From Rhodococcus sp. 105337 (GTDB lineage Bacteria > Actinomycetota > Actinomycetes > Mycobacteriales > Mycobacteriaceae), in contig NZ_JABAGQ010000004.1 in assembly GCF_012844225.1 (NCBI RefSeq), forward strand, positions 1 to 64,000: a stretch of 64,000 nt of DNA, in the 5' to 3' direction. Position 1 is the first letter of the stretch. Each line of letters starts with the position of its first letter. A program made the position numbers and the translations under genes. Below are positions 1-58,026 of this stretch, in pieces. The notes under the pieces were generated by a model that saw only the letters and a list, made by a program, of their open reading frames with translations, was not told the origin of the DNA and did not search any database.

Positions 1-216
1 CCTCGGCGAGGGAGCGACACGCCGCGGACCTGGCCGGATGCGCTCAGCCGATTCCCACCACTTCCCGGGACTTACCCACAGTTTGTGCAGAGTCAGGTCG
101 GGCACGCCTACGCCTCGACAACCGCGATCTACACCTCCGTCACCGACGACTACCGCAACCGCGTCCTGACCGCCGCGATCGACAAGTTCTACTTCACCCC
201 GCAGGAGCAGCAATGA
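1..216 (+). pseudogene. C-terminal remnant of a tyrosine recombinase/integrase
   Basis: The frame is open from base 1 to a TGA at 214-216. From about base 86 it encodes a typical C-terminal end of a phage-type tyrosine recombinase: FVQSQVGHAYASTTAIYT, with the box II Gly-His and the Tyr nucleophile in the TAIYT segment, followed by a short tail. The roughly 28 codons before that (bases 1-85) do not show the expected LRHxxATHL-type sequence in any of the three forward frames. The gene is therefore either cut by the window edge with a frameshift or rearrangement near base 80, or is a true fragment. The stop overlaps the ATG of the next gene by 4 bp (ATGA), which suggests translational coupling in an integrase operon. 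Recombinase origin is clear; intactness upstream cannot be judged. Confidence 0.6.
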
Positions 217-545
217 CGACGAAGACGATCACCTGGCGACTGCGCACCCTGATGGCAGAGCGCGGCATGTTCAAGACCACCGACCTGATCGAACCCCTCC
301 AGTCCGAGGGCGTTGCCCTGTCCCGAGAACAGGTGTTCCGCCTGGTGACCCAGACCCCGCAGCGACTGAACGTGGAGGTCCTCGCCGCCCTGTGCACGAT
401 CCTGGGCTGCACCCCCAATGATCTGCTCGTCCTCGAACAAGCCGGTCAGCAGCCAGCCGAAGCCACCGGCACCGGCGGCCCGATCGACAACATCGGCGAT
501 CTGCGCCCGGTCCCCGCCCACATCCACCGACCGAAGCACTCGTGA
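213..545 (+). CDS. XRE-family (Cro/CI-type) helix-turn-helix regulator
   Basis: A 110-residue protein. Residues about 5-70 form a Cro/CI-type helix-turn-helix domain: a short first helix ending in LMAERGMF, the segment LSREQVFRLV where the recognition helix would sit, and the LAALCTILGCTPNDLL ending that is typical of this family. The remaining 40 residues are Pro/Gly-rich and probably disordered. The ATG overlaps the stop of the preceding recombinase remnant and the stop overlaps the GTG of the next gene (GTGA at 542-545), so the three genes look like one translationally coupled unit. A likely role is control of the recombinase pair; the targets are not visible. The domain is well supported, the role is inferred. 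Confidence 0.8.
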   Translation: MTTKTITWRLRTLMAERGMFKTTDLIEPLQSEGVALSREQVFRLVTQTPQRLNVEVLAALCTILGCTPNDLLVLEQAGQQPAEATGTGGPIDNIGDLRPVPAHIHRPKHS

Positions 546-2519
546 CGATCCAGCGAGGAACCCCACAGCCGAACGGCGAATTCGGCCCCCGAGTCGCCGC
601 GGCCCTCACCGGCAAAGGAATACGTGCGCCCGAGCCGCTCGTGATCGCAGCCGCGGAACGGATCATCCCTGCACCCCGGCGCAACGGGGCACTGCGCTTG
701 CTGACCAGCGACACGTTCACCCCGTCCCGGATTCCCGCAGACACACCGACCGTGGTGCAGCAGTTGCTGGCGCATCTCGACCGCCACGACGTGACCGGTA
801 TCGGCTTGCCGATCTGTCCCGGCTGCCGCACCGCCAAGGTCGTCAAGATGCGGGACGAACAGGGGCGACGAATCTGCTACCGGTGTACCCAACTGTCGGC
901 CTACGGAGAGTGTCCCAGCTGTCTGCGGAGAAAGAAGCTCATCGCCACCGACCCGGAGGGAAGGCAGGTCTGCCAACGCTGCGGCCCCGACGGCGCACCG
1001 ACTTTCGAGTGCACCGCCTGCGCGAAGACGGTGACCGTCGCCAGCCGAGTCGACGGCCGGTGGCACTGCCTGAACTGCTACCCGAGACCGGCCCGGCGGT
1101 GTGTGTCGTGCGGACACGACAAGAAGATCGCCACCACGATCCTGACCGGCCCGCACTGCTTCGCCTGCCACAACCGTGTGCTGCGCAACCCCGCCCCCTG
1201 TCCCGGCTGCGACCGGATCCGTATCCTCGCCTTCCTCGACGACACCGCGACGGCGATCTGTGCAGGCTGCGCGGGTCAGCCGGCCCGGTACGCCTGTCGC
1301 CGCTGCGGCGGCGAGGAACACCACTACGGCAGGCTCTGCGCACACTGTGTCCTCGACGACCGCTGCACCGAACTACTCACCGGCCCCGACGGGACGATCA
1401 GCGAACCGATGCGCGCCCTACGCGAGCACTTGCTCACCCGGCCCCGGCCGGCGCAGATCATCACATGGCTGCGCCGCGGCCCGCACCTCGACCTTCTGGG
1501 CGAGATCGCCTCCGGACAAGCACCGTTGACTGCCGCGTCCTTCGTCCGGCCCGGCGGCGACAAGAGTCTCGACCATCTCTACGCCCTGCTGGTCGAGGCC
1601 GGAGCGATTCCCCGTGACCGGGCCACCGCCGACCTCCTCGAAGCCTGGACGGAGCGTGCCATCGCTGACGCTCCTGCCGGGCATCGCCGGTTGATGACCA
1701 CCTATGCCCGCTGGGTGTTGCTGCGTCGTGCCTCATCCGACCGTCGCACAGGAGATATCACCTCCGGTGCCGCCAAGCATGTCAAGGCCGCAACGCGCGG
1801 ACTGATCGCCTTTCTCACCTGGCTCGACGAGCACGACACCTCGCTCGACGCCGTCACCCAGGGGCAGGTCGAACAGTTCCTGACCGTTCGCTCCGCGCAA
1901 CGCTGGCTACCTCAGTTCCTCGGCTGGGCGCACGAGCGTGGTCTCGCGCCGCAGCTCGAAGTCCCCGTCCTCACCCCGGGCCTGCCTAACATCACCGCAT
2001 CCGAACGCGATCACGAACACACCATTGCCACGCTCCTCCGTGACGACACCATCGCCCTCGATGTCCGCGTCCCGTCCCTGCTCATCGCGGTCTACGGCGT
2101 CCCCGCGTCCAGGATTCTCGCACTCCGTCGTGGACAGCTCCGCGATACCGGCGAGGCGATCGACCTGTACGTCAGGGACCGGCCATTGCGGCTTCCCGGA
2201 CGACTTGGCGATCTGGCCCGCACACAACTCGCCCGGCATCCCGACGCCGGGCCGCAGGACTGGCTGTTCCCGGGCCGGCAGCCCGGCCGACCACGAAGCA
2301 CGCTCTATCTCACCCGGCAGCTGTGCATGCTCGGCACCAGCATCTCCGCGCTGCAAAAAAACTGCTCGTTTTCGTCTTGCGGGAGCCGTCCCCGCCAAGG
2401 TGCTGGCCGACATGCTCGGCTTCAGCGTCAACACCTTCGCGACCTACGCGCACCTCGCGGCCGGTAACCGCGGCGAGTATCCGAGTCTGCGACATCGCGA
2501 GAAACCCCGGGCCCGCTGA
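542..2519 (+). pseudogene. Six-zinc-ribbon protein with degenerate tyrosine-recombinase domain, frameshifted
   Basis: From the GTG at 542 the protein has about 90 N-terminal residues and then six consecutive CxxC...CxxC pairs at residues 92-115, 124-147, 157-179, 187-209, 220-243 and 252-269: 24 cysteines, the pattern of tandem zinc ribbons. After a linker, residues about 380-600 resemble an integrase SAM-like core-binding domain and catalytic domain (AVYGVPASRILALR at the box I position). The 542 frame continues to 2467 with nonsense after codon 605. The expected C-terminus (AKVLADMLGF then TFATYAHLA, with the Tyr) lies in the +1 frame and ends at 2519. Removing one A from the seven-A run at 2355-2361 gives a continuous 658-residue protein. 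The usual box II His and the Gly-His are replaced (ARFRLA, LGF), so even the intact protein may be a catalytically weak or accessory recombinase. Function unknown; DNA binding through the ribbons is inferred. Confidence 0.65.
2355..2361 (+). other. Seven-A homopolymer, site of the +1 frameshift
   Basis: Seven consecutive A residues in the codon context ctg caa aaa aac. The upstream recombinase frame and the downstream frame that carries the conserved C-terminus differ by exactly one base here. The site contains an A AAA AAC heptamer in the zero frame, but a -1 shift leads into an unrelated reading frame, so the heptamer does not explain the disruption. A one-base insertion, a sequencing error or transcriptional slippage on the A run would. 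Confidence 0.75.
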
Positions 2520-2646: not shown

Positions 2647-3513
2647 GTGGACGACGAGAAGGAACGGCTCGGTCTTACCTGTCGACTCAGCGTCGAGCAA
2701 ACCGTTCACCTCTCGCGTTGGCTCCCCGATGCCCGACTACAGGCCGATCTGAGCTGGAACCTCACCGACACCGTTGTACTCGAGATCGCCAGCGGACTCG
2801 GCCGATTCATTGTCAAAGCAGCAGGCCCGGCCAATAGCCACATCGGCCGTGAGATCACCGCCTATCAGGGCGCGACCGCTTGCCTGGCGGAGAACGGGCG
2901 CGCTGCCCGCATGATCGAGCACGATCGGGCCGCGAACATCCTGGTCACCGAATACCTCGACGGCACCCTTGCCGCAGGAAGCGACGCCGAGTTCGACGCC
3001 GATGTTCATCACCAGGCAGGTGCACTTCTTCGCACCTTCCACGACCAAGCAGCGCGTTGCGACGACGATGCGGAAGCCCGCGCCACCGCGAAAGCTCTTG
3101 CCTGGCTCGATCAACCACACAGAATCGATCCACACACCGTGGACGGGCTGCGTCGGATCCTTGCGTCGTACGGCCCTCGGCCTGTGAAGGTCGTGCCTAC
3201 GCACGGTGACTGGTCGCCGAGGAACTGGCTCGTCGACCGCGGGATGGTCAAGGTCATCGACTTCGGGCGCTTCGATTTCCGCCCCGCGCTCAGCGATTTT
3301 TGCCGGCTCGCAGCGCGGCAGTGGCGCAAGAACACGGATCTGGAACAGGCCTTTCTCGACGGCTACGGCACCGACCCCCGAGATCTGGAACTCTGGGCGA
3401 TTTCCACCCTCCGTGAAGCGATCGGAACCGCGGTCTGGGCATATCAGGTCGGCGATGAACCGTTTGAGCATGAAGGCCACCGAATGGTCGCAGACGCATT
3501 GAGTCTGTTCTGA
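2647..3513 (+). CDS. Aminoglycoside phosphotransferase/choline-kinase-fold kinase
   Basis: A 288-residue protein of the APH/ChoK fold. The catalytic loop HGDWSPRNWL (from about residue 186) holds the Brenner-type Asp, and VIDFGRFDF (about residue 204) is the metal-binding DFG-like segment. An N-terminal lobe with FIVKAAGP probably carries the ATP-binding Lys. The GTG at 2647 gives the family's usual length. The gene stands alone between the recombinase hairpin and the ComB-like gene, downstream of a mobile-element remnant, so acquisition with that element is possible. The substrate cannot be read from sequence; the family includes antibiotic, choline, homoserine and sugar kinases, and resistance should not be assumed. 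Confidence 0.75.
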   Translation: MDDEKERLGLTCRLSVEQTVHLSRWLPDARLQADLSWNLTDTVVLEIASGLGRFIVKAAGPANSHIGREITAYQGATACLAENGRAARMIEHDRAANILVTEYLDGTLAAGSDAEFDADVHHQAGALLRTFHDQAARCDDDAEARATAKALAWLDQPHRIDPHTVDGLRRILASYGPRPVKVVPTHGDWSPRNWLVDRGMVKVIDFGRFDFRPALSDFCRLAARQWRKNTDLEQAFLDGYGTDPRDLELWAISTLREAIGTAVWAYQVGDEPFEHEGHRMVADALSLF

Positions 3514-7642: not shown

Positions 7643-8773
7643 TCAGGCGGGCAGCACCGTCAGGCCGTGCGGCCGCAGGTTCACCGGCTCGCAGCCGTCT
7701 GCGGTGACCACCACGATGTCTTCGATGCGTGCCCCCCACTGCCCGCGGAAGTAGATGCCCGGTTCGATGCTGAAGGCCATGCCCGGCTCGAGCGTCTCGG
7801 TGTTGCCGCCGACGATGTACGGCTCTTCGTGGACCGACAGGCCGATGCCGTGCCCGGTCCGGTGCACGAACACCTCCCCCAGCCCTTCGGCGGCGAGCAG
7901 ATCGCGCGCGGCGGCGTCGACCGCTTCGGCGGTGACCCCGGGCCGCACCGCGTCGACCGCGGCCTGCTGCGCCGCTTCCAGCACCGCGATGCGGGCGGCG
8001 ATCGCCGGGTCGGGTTCGCCGATGCTGTAGGTGCGGGTCGAATCGGAGTTGTAGCCGGGCTCGACGGGACCGCCGATGTCGATGACCACGATGTCGCCGG
8101 GTTCGATGACCCGATCGGACACCTCGTGGTGCGGGTCGGCGCCGTGCGGGCCCGACCCGACGATCACGAAGGCCGCCTCGGTGTGCCCCTCCTCGAGGAT
8201 CGCGGCGCTGATATCGGCGGCGACCTGCGCTTCGGTGCGACCGGCCCGCAACCACTCCCCCATGCGGGCATGCACGCGGTCGATGGCGGCACCCGCGCGG
8301 CGCAACGCGTCGATCTCGTCGGCGTCCTTGAGCATCCGCAACTGCCGGATCACCGGGGTGGCCAGTACCGGGGTGCCGCCGAAGCGCGCGGCGAGCGGCA
8401 CCAGATGCAGCGCCGGCATCGCCTCGGCGACCGCGACCGCGGACGCACCCGGCAGCAACTCGGAGACCAGCGCATACGGGTCCTGTCCGTCGACCCAGTC
8501 GCGGACCGGCACGGCGAGTTCGGCGACGGCCGACTCGTTGAGGGATGCCAGCTCGAGGCGCGGCACCACCACGGTGGCGGCCGACCCGTCGGTGGGGATC
8601 ACCAGGCAGGTCAGGCGTTCGAACGACTCGGCGCGTGAACCCACCAGGTACCGCAGGTCCGGTCCCGGGGTGATCAGCAACGCGTCGAGCCCGGCGGCGG
8701 CCCCCAACTCGGCGGCGCGAGTCAGGCGTGTTCCGTAGCGGGCGGCGGGAAATCGGGAGTCGGCGGTGCTCAT
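7643..8773 (-). CDS. pepE: M24-family Xaa-Pro aminopeptidase (PepE/PepQ type)
   Basis: A 376-residue pita-bread metallopeptidase that removes N-terminal residues before proline or cleaves Xaa-Pro dipeptides. All five metal ligands can be placed: Asp in VVIDIGGPVE, Asp in YNSDSTRTYS, His in RTGHGIGLSVHE, Glu in SIEPGIYF and Glu in GARIEDIVV. The N-terminal creatinase-like domain (RYLVGSRAESFERL) is complete. The ATG at 8771-8773 is preferred to the upstream in-frame start at 8827, which would overlap the divergent exonuclease gene. Position next to the exonuclease matches Rv2089c (pepE). Confidence 0.85.
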   Translation of the reverse strand: MSTADSRFPAARYGTRLTRAAELGAAAGLDALLITPGPDLRYLVGSRAESFERLTCLVIPTDGSAATVVVPRLELASLNESAVAELAVPVRDWVDGQDPYALVSELLPGASAVAVAEAMPALHLVPLAARFGGTPVLATPVIRQLRMLKDADEIDALRRAGAAIDRVHARMGEWLRAGRTEAQVAADISAAILEEGHTEAAFVIVGSGPHGADPHHEVSDRVIEPGDIVVIDIGGPVEPGYNSDSTRTYSIGEPDPAIAARIAVLEAAQQAAVDAVRPGVTAEAVDAAARDLLAAEGLGEVFVHRTGHGIGLSVHEEPYIVGGNTETLEPGMAFSIEPGIYFRGQWGARIEDIVVVTADGCEPVNLRPHGLTVLPA

Positions 8774-56865: not shown

Positions 56866-58026
56866 TCAGAGTCCGAGGTGCGTGACCGCGTTGCCCACCA
56901 GTCCGGCGTGGTGCCGGCTGTAGAGCGCGACCATGCGTTCGTCGGCGTGACCGGTCTGCGTCATGATCGTCTGCGTGGTCGCCCCGTTGCGGACCGCCTG
57001 GGTGACGAACCCGGCGCGGAGACTGTGCCCGCCGAGGGTCGCGACCAGATCGGGGCTGAACCCCGCCCGGAGCGCGCGGCGCTGGATCATCGAGTGCACC
57101 GACTGCCCGGTCAGCGCTCCCCCACCGAGCGACCCGGAGCGGTGGACGGGCCGGAACAACGGCCGGTCCGCATCCGTCGTGTCGACGGAAAAGCCGCGGC
57201 AGCAATGGTTGTCGACAGGAGCGGCGTCCGCGGCGAGGAGTTCGGCGACCGCGGCGCGGCCCCCGTCGTCCCACGCGTCGAGAACCTCCCGCCAGCGCCG
57301 GTACGCGCACACCGGGCAGGTGTGCGGATCGGACCCGTACGGCACGGTCACCGTGCGGCCCCGGGCTTCGCGGTCCGTCTTGGAGCGGCGCACCGTCACG
57401 TACAGCCCGTCGGCACGGTGCGGCACCACGTCCGAGACGGCGAGTGCGGACAGTTCGCTGCGGCGCAGCGCACCGGCGAGTCCGATGAGCAGCAGCGCCG
57501 AATCGCGCCGCTCGGCGGCACGGTCCGGCCATCCGCCCTCGCGCGCGGTGGTCCGCATGTCGGCGAGGATGCTGCGGATGTCGTCGGTGAGCAGCGGTGT
57601 CCGCCGGGCAGGCGGGGTGGCGCGCTCACGGCGAATGCCGCGCAACAGATCCCGCACGCTTTCGTGTTGCCCGGGTCGCGGGTGACCGGCGAGGGCGTGG
57701 AGTTTGTTGATCGTCGACACCCAGCGGGACAGGGTCGACGGTGCGTACGCCCAGCGGCCGTCGGGCCGGAGTTCGGCGGCTTTCTCGGTGAGAAACCAGC
57801 CCACTTGTTCGGGCGTGGCGGGCAGAGGTGCGTGCCCGGTGCTCTCACACCAGCGCGTGAAGATCGCCCAATCGCTCAGGTGCGCCGCGCGGGTGTTTCC
57901 GGACGCCGCCTTGTCCCGCAGGCGACGCATCGCGTCCGCGACTGTGTCCGGCACGGCCGGAGCCGACGACGCAGAAAGGTCGCCCGAGACGACGTCCGGG
58001 ACTGACCGCGGATCGAGTCCGGTCAC
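56866..58026 (-). CDS. Tyrosine recombinase/site-specific integrase, coupled to pepN
   Basis: A 386-residue integrase. Core-binding domain: GNTRAAHLSDWAIFTRWCES. Catalytic domain: LIGLAGALRRSELSAL with box I Arg, LYVTVRRSKTD with the beta-strand Lys, GHSLRAGFVTQAV with His-x-x-Arg, QTGHADERMVALYSRH with Gly-His and the Tyr nucleophile. All catalytic residues are present. GTG at 58026 overlaps the pepN stop by 4 bp, so it is translated after a housekeeping peptidase gene. No att repeats or phage genes are recognisable beside it. Confidence 0.85.
   Translation of the reverse strand: MTGLDPRSVPDVVSGDLSASSAPAVPDTVADAMRRLRDKAASGNTRAAHLSDWAIFTRWCESTGHAPLPATPEQVGWFLTEKAAELRPDGRWAYAPSTLSRWVSTINKLHALAGHPRPGQHESVRDLLRGIRRERATPPARRTPLLTDDIRSILADMRTTAREGGWPDRAAERRDSALLLIGLAGALRRSELSALAVSDVVPHRADGLYVTVRRSKTDREARGRTVTVPYGSDPHTCPVCAYRRWREVLDAWDDGGRAAVAELLAADAAPVDNHCCRGFSVDTTDADRPLFRPVHRSGSLGGGALTGQSVHSMIQRRALRAGFSPDLVATLGGHSLRAGFVTQAVRNGATTQTIMTQTGHADERMVALYSRHHAGLVGNAVTHLGL

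Follow-up and report, generated by a model that had tools for sequence, protein, structure and literature searches.

A three-gene core of the kind examined here was named in 2018, when 'XER modules' on Arthrobacter plasmids were put forward as a putative new kind of integrative element (PMC6305408). In the part of that paper available, the modules comprise a tyrosine recombinase, an XRE regulator and a second recombinase-like protein, with 4 or 14 passenger genes, and the third product is called 'XerC', with neither ribbons nor lost catalysis described there (PMC6305408). We analysed the same core in Rhodococcus sp. 105337 (genome G000; 4.46 Mb in 34 contigs), where it lies at the start of a 64,000-nucleotide stretch, positions 1–64,000 of contig C29, hereafter the window; we call its recombinase, XRE and zinc-ribbon genes gene 1, gene 2 and gene 3, and the three together the trio. 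The operon order of the XER modules is found here too, with C29 and a second contig, C6, together carrying all three genes, and the copy on plasmid pA2H2, inserted between umuD and umuC, is a direct homologue. The passenger genes, which form a variable region in the XER modules, are a point of difference for genome G534, where units made of the trio only occur. Homology between the copies of the window genome and Rhodococcus coprophilus ends at the trio borders.

Other described elements share parts of this design. Strand-biased circularizing elements (SEs; IntA-Tfp-IntB-Srap), reported from Gammaproteobacteria, resemble the trio in that their operon is coupled and encodes Tfp, a protein of recombinase fold but without catalytic residues; they differ in having two active recombinases, and neither an XRE protein nor zinc is mentioned in the accessible text (PMC10214605). 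GInts (ginABCD), which are site-specific and need all four genes according to the portion of text available (PMC5385486), likewise have an operon with three integrase-like proteins, of which GinC has a recombinase fold without catalytic residues (PMC10214605, in part), plus a small helix-loop-helix protein; they differ in their two active recombinases and their different small protein, and zinc is again not mentioned in the accessible text (PMC5385486). RIT and Tn554, as tabulated in the accessible part of PMC10214605, are also small tyrosine-recombinase elements with several coupled genes, although RIT has three recombinases and Tn554 has TnpA, TnpB and TnpC, with no Tfp counterpart. Whereas GInt, SE, RIT and Tn554 operons each carry two or three active recombinases, the trio has one predicted catalytic recombinase, an XRE protein and an apparently dead paralogue. 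Mobile DNA may also use dif, the XerCD site where joined chromosomes are separated, as a landmark or entry point; this is so for pdif-associated insertion sequences and for IMEX, whose enzymes differ from those of the trio, and IMEX, which have dif-like sites at both ends, recombine inside dif via host XerCD.

We consider that the trio is probably the recombination module of a small tyrosine-recombinase element of Actinomycetota, in which gene 3 would most likely serve as the non-cutting partner of gene 1. A preliminary description of the window had named no characterised system with this architecture, which does not hold for the core, known since 2018; for the ribbons, the lost catalysis and the link to dif we found no earlier paper, in a literature search that left most subscription journals outside and that returned nothing on zinc-ribbon tyrosine recombinases or on actinobacterial elements beside dif.

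Conservation of the trio and properties of its products

Gene-3 places in the fetched loci were examined with profiles built from family members, near-identical copies included, and a recombinase and an XRE gene were found directly upstream of gene 3 in 50 of 55. Of the five exceptions, L022, L104 and the window are truncated where a record or contig stops. The XRE match of L030 falls within the same long frame, which is a matter of frame calling, and the trio of L032 is interrupted, its recombinase and XRE gene being separated by additional recombinase genes together with one for DUF6262. This inserted set, at 1589–5345 of L032 (Pseudarthrobacter plasmid pB), consists of two recombinases and the DUF6262 gene and is presumably Tn554-like. 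The architecture recurs in dozens of genomes and is therefore not a product of chance. Among the loci examined, homologues without recombinase neighbours, which would have spoken against the preliminary description, were limited to two partial gene-3 frames, L232 (profile positions 445–790) and L243 (328–720 of 798), which lie beside dif with no recombinase or XRE gene upstream; both come from the same genus, were retrieved through dif and are outside the 55 places, and both are probably relics.

By tblastn against 72,556 plasmid records, gene-3 relatives were found on 214 (window query) and 258 (Streptomyces query), mostly from Streptomyces, Rhodococcus and Arthrobacter. Genomes with a gene-3 match, many of them matches to fragments, numbered 7 of 18 for the genus, and 53 of 201 and 25 of 396, respectively, for the samples drawn from the family and the phylum. 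We rejected a phage or viral origin for the trio: none of 50,697 phage records held a gene-3 relative, and scans of IMG/VR gave one contig (L174/L177), on which the trio follows an integrase gene. The motif AATTGCATCAGACGGG, used as a probe in viral contigs, returned 9 stretches, one with a trio. The family profiles also match pA2H2 and pA8H1, and the latter carries a second, truncated trio in opposite orientation (L029 15548–18241) near the right end of its larger XER module.

In gene 1 the residues needed for catalysis (Arg, Lys, HxxR, His and Tyr) are kept at their columns in 21–22 of 22 partner proteins, a set without the split genes of the window and of R. coprophilus, and on these residues gene 1 is the predicted catalytic recombinase of the element. 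The product of gene 2 has a Cro/C1 helix-turn-helix domain (PF13443, 57.9 bits against a cut-off of 22). Upstream of the recombinase in L018, L019, L020, L174 and L027 there is a TTGCATYAGACGGG-like motif with an inverted, partly degenerate copy, which in pA2H2 forms a perfect palindrome of 15+7+15 bp; a possible role is that of an operator for the XRE protein.

Gene 3 is distinguished by paired CxxC motifs, which are predicted zinc ribbons. As the preliminary description had stated, the window protein has 24 cysteines in six regular ribbons (12 CxxC at residues 92–269, 815–1348 on the plus strand), within a total of 28 cysteines in the frame 542–2467. Other unbroken relatives have 5–18 CxxC, and ribbon number in the family is about 3–9. 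An alignment of 24 proteins shows the 12 cysteines of the three final ribbons to be present without exception (24 of 24). The same description had noted that the box II His and the Gly-His are lost while the Tyr is kept, which is true of the window tail but incomplete, as the box I Arg (in the canonical register) is missing too and a Gln occupies the box II Arg position. Across the family, the box I Arg is present in 1 of 24 proteins at the position chosen and in 12 of 24 three residues on, the box II His in 0 of 24, the box II Arg in 22 of 23, the GH His in 0 of 23 and the Tyr in 2 of 23. Gene 3 is thus without most catalytic residues of tyrosine recombinases, and we read it as a catalytically dead paralogue.

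Attempts to prove the fold from sequence alone failed. Searches of Pfam, with the window protein and member by member, gave only zinc matches, all below the cut-off; NCBIfam and PHROGs gave no match; a gene-3 profile reached XerD at E = 0.078 in the PDB; and hhalign, run with an option that the program ignored, returned a probability of 0.1. The structure model was more informative: residues 378–660 of the R. coprophilus homologue match Cre, Xer and lambda Int, and nearly all of the 50 structural matches listed are tyrosine recombinases or topoisomerase IB. The C-terminal part of gene 3 therefore models as a tyrosine-recombinase fold with core-binding and catalytic domains, in line with what the preliminary description had proposed.

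A dead recombinase fold could also belong to a repressor. Gene 3 might be mainly a regulator comparable to MrpR of SPbeta, in which case the XRE protein would be its co-regulator and the element would be moved by gene 1 alone; MrpR and YopR are indeed among the structural matches. Cre and Xer rank above both, however, and gene 3 stays with gene 1 in the 55 places, although a lone gene 1 would escape a search that starts from gene 3. GInts, moreover, need all four of their genes (PMC5385486), the dead-fold member GinC among them (PMC10214605). We regard a mainly regulatory gene 3 as unlikely, though it is the best of the alternatives.

Mobility and position beside dif

Comparison of related sequences shows that the trio is conserved as a unit and is mobile, that its insertion is precise and that some targets are preferred. 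In Arthrobacter plasmid pA58H3 umuD and umuC are contiguous, while pA2H2 carries at this junction a 7.5-kb insertion made of the trio and four further genes, a pair that provides a precise empty site. In genome G534 a 3.3-kb unit consisting of nothing but the trio occurs at three chromosomal places, the copies being 99.5% identical. For the two of these sites that were searched, congeners carry an unsplit repeat with a related left flank (78–85% identity), the right side being recognised by the repeat itself, with no long flank. A 3.6-kb trio block is 99.4% identical between G004 and G008, with mostly different flanks. The trio copies of the window genome and R. coprophilus share 92.6% identity in the part on C29 and 96.8% in the part on C6, with unrelated flanks; the homologous stretch runs from 28 bp before the start of the recombinase gene to within the last codons of gene 3. 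We rejected L096/L097 as an empty-site pair, as their differences look like insertion sequences, and found no tRNA gene as a target at the three G534 loci.

The position of three-ribbon trios beside dif is new here. We used as reference the predicted dif of the actinobacterium Frankia alni, CACGCCGATAATGCACATTATGTCAAGT, as given in the accessible part of its source (PMC3025954), and scored as dif-like any site with ≤3 substitutions over 17 fixed positions. The 28 three-ribbon loci counted (5–7 CxxC in gene 3) had been picked by gene-3 matches, before dif came into consideration. A dif-like site was found at the trio's 5′ end in 20 of them (L032, L089, L090, L091, L096, L097, L100, L102, L107, L201–L206, L210, L211, L212, L217 and L218, of which L089–L091 are three copies from one genome, and L032 and L096 were scored in separate scans, the main rule not reaching them) and in 0 of 17 long types (L006, L017–L020, L027, L029, L030, L092, L093, L098, L103, L106, L174, L215, L216 and the window with L024, 18 stretches in all). 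Left out of these counts were L080, L094, L207 and L219 (short upstream sequence), L104 (contig end), L021 and L022 (long types with too little upstream sequence), and L031 and L101 (broken proteins), at which no dif-like site was seen. Each positive locus held exactly one dif-like site (392 kb in total), and none was present in the long-type sequence scanned, 320 kb with the window counted in; a looser pattern gave 2 chance matches in 12 loci on both strands (446 kb of strand).

With a stricter pattern, the site occurs once per genome in G483, G531, G460, G577 and G305, with the trio beside it, which makes it probable that this is the chromosomal dif. Conversely, 13 of 40 fetched dif loci have trio genes within ~1.5 kb. 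In the single-genus subset fetched by dif, for which 30 of 50 matches were made into loci, two of them already in the set, 8 of 28 hold trio genes (the already known G512 among them). By eye, the element lies on the XerD side of dif in 13 of the 20 loci and on the XerC side in 7, and its end is about 6–10 bp outside an intact dif. Of the 13 XerD-side elements, 10 have an end that resembles CTGCRTATTGCATCAGATGAATC, 6 bp beyond the dif 28-mer.

Several observations weigh against a general preference for dif. Eight three-ribbon loci (L095, L099, L105, L108, L208, L209, L213 and L214) have no dif-like site, so the pattern is not general, and L099, the second trio of G483, is located elsewhere than dif. 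The chromosomal dif match that we fetched is not beside a trio in R. coprophilus, G008, G009, G091, G581 or the window genome; G009 has a trio next to another dif-like site, its second, in a contig of plasmid size. Finally, L201 and L240 are 99.7% identical over 1,520 bp, in a shared block that continues through most of dif before similarity drops, and dif may travel with the element in this pair.

That shared block, the dif-like site abutting 20 of 28 three-ribbon loci and the same-orientation dif-like arrays in the genus of G534 would all suit elements that, like IMEX, use host XerCD, or that carry dif themselves. We hold this explanation to be improbable, somewhat more so than a regulatory gene 3, as the fetched stretch of each of the 20 loci has a single dif-like site, the element end read by eye falls outside it, and the elements retain their own catalytic recombinase. 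It is most improbable that the trio is a fixed module of plasmids or islands, such as a resolution or stability system, with no element of its own: many copies are on plasmids and the dif association would fit dimer resolution, but the precise empty site of pA2H2 and pA58H3, the three dispersed chromosomal copies in G534 and the differing flanks of G000 and R. coprophilus count against it.

The arrays themselves are a separate matter. G534, G503, G446, G462, G420, G477 and G491 (L166–L173, L184 and L185) contain dif-like repeats in one orientation, spaced by ~0.5–10 kb; in the intervals a crude gene finder places genes on either strand, and a genome has as many as 32 matches if the halves of split sites are counted. 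The contig stretches L184 and L185, 99.95% identical, differ by one ~525-bp cassette inserted at a repeat core, and the arrays look like an actinobacterial Xer/dif cassette system. The G534 trio copies (L089 5784, L090 10946 and L091 6090) interrupt such repeats, all three at one internal position that lies a few bases past the XerC arm. We dropped the idea that the trio made these palindromic repeats in G534, as G446, G503, G462 and G420 carry them and are outside the 53 matched genomes.

Integrase genes and a possible division of labour

One long type (L018, L019, L020, L030 and L174) begins with (A)ACCCTCGGGAATTGCATCAGACGGG or a close variant just past the apparent catalytic-Tyr codon of another gene (L018 988, L019 3779, L020 3748, L030 4365 and L174 4197). 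The genes at these five element ends are different phage-type integrases, with the Tyr codon read by eye, and on our own reading the integrase gene is apparently the target of this long type, not a part of the element.

In the mechanism that we propose, gene 1 would be the cutting recombinase of the element, and the XRE protein probably an operon repressor or a directionality factor. Gene 3 would most likely take part with gene 1 in the synaptic complex without cutting DNA itself; its ribbons and core-binding domain would read the element ends and/or the target DNA, and it would in this way set the target. Tfp of SEs and GinC of GInts, recombinase-fold proteins without catalytic residues, offer a parallel (PMC10214605). 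The preliminary description had suggested that the ribbons give recognition to a poorly catalytic subunit, and this is partly supported; the residue losses of gene 3 and its coupling to the trio are in keeping with the second part, while DNA reading by the ribbons stands as an inference. We offer more tentatively, and would sooner doubt than assert, the idea that minimal Actinomycetota transposons home on the DNA of other tyrosine recombinases (three-ribbon types at a fixed distance from dif, and at least one long type immediately past the Tyr codon of integrase genes), with a single catalytic subunit and gene 3 as an exchangeable selector whose ribbon number follows the target class.

The broken copy in the window

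The window itself is a modest result, one broken copy. It holds only about the last 45 codons of the recombinase, a C-terminal piece at 82–216 on the plus strand with GH and Tyr present (family profile match in frame 1–216). The preliminary description had taken it for a canonical recombinase C-terminus, and it does end canonically (VGHAYASTTAIYT) at 216, but bases 1 to about 77–81 lie outside the gene, the remainder of which is on C6, minus strand, at about 79–1052. The 4-bp overlaps reported earlier are present at 213–216 (recombinase/XRE) and 542–545 (XRE/gene 3). The regulator (213–545, plus strand, 110 aa) matches Pfam HTH_26 at E = 1.2e-15, and the gene-3 frame (542–2467, plus strand) matches the family profile at E = 9.2e-254. 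The span 542–2519 had been described as one product; its frame breaks at a run of seven As at 2355–2361, so that true coding runs to the break and then out of frame to the stop at 2467, while the C-terminal tail continues in another frame (2349–2519, plus strand; profile match 2349–2504) to the stop at 2519. The putative, catalytically degenerate tyrosine-recombinase-fold region, with core-binding and catalytic-like domains, would span 1673–2519 on the plus strand by the model of the R. coprophilus homologue. In that species (R. coprophilus NBRC 100603, of the same genus), gene 3 is a single frame of 660 aa with 88% identity, and the recombinase appears as two overlapping frames in its record.

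Alignment with R. coprophilus, whose homology to the window trio begins at window 78, shows C6 extending to L025 7973 and C29 starting at 7968, a 6-bp overlap that resembles a target duplication, and ~77–78 bp at each contig end falling outside both trio parts. As an insertion sequence in the gene would leave such a pattern on assembly, the recombinase gene is apparently split in this way, with the probable ends of the insertion sequence at window 1–81 (boundary ± a few bases) and C6 1–78; no further copy of it was found among the fetched loci. The right border of the shared unit lies at approximately 2500–2519, inside the last codons of gene 3, where homology to R. coprophilus stops. Given the recombinase split over two contigs and the frameshifted gene 3, we read the window copy as a relic. 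No empty site was found for it, and the sole dif match of the window genome is at C6 47868, ~47 kb from the relic along C6.

Next to the split recombinase on C6 is a second signal-peptidase-like gene (1182–2027). We had considered lepB as the insertion target and dropped this idea, as a lepB-like gene also adjoins rplS on C31, which makes the C6 copy a second one. A phosphotransferase-like gene adjoins the relic at window 2647–3513, with a motif (HGDWSPRNWL...IDFGR) that we take to be APH-like; no family search was made and we claim no resistance role. A further phage-integrase family match lies at 56911–57114 on the minus strand, within an open frame of 874 aa.

The proposal, if true, would explain a trio that is annotated as 'site-specific integrase / helix-turn-helix regulator / hypothetical protein' and whose relatives occur in 53 of the 201 genomes sampled from one family, or about a quarter. 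It would also be a clear case of work divided between a recombinase that is active and a dead paralogue that reads DNA, in elements that settle next to dif, where the cell-cycle control of XerCD could matter.
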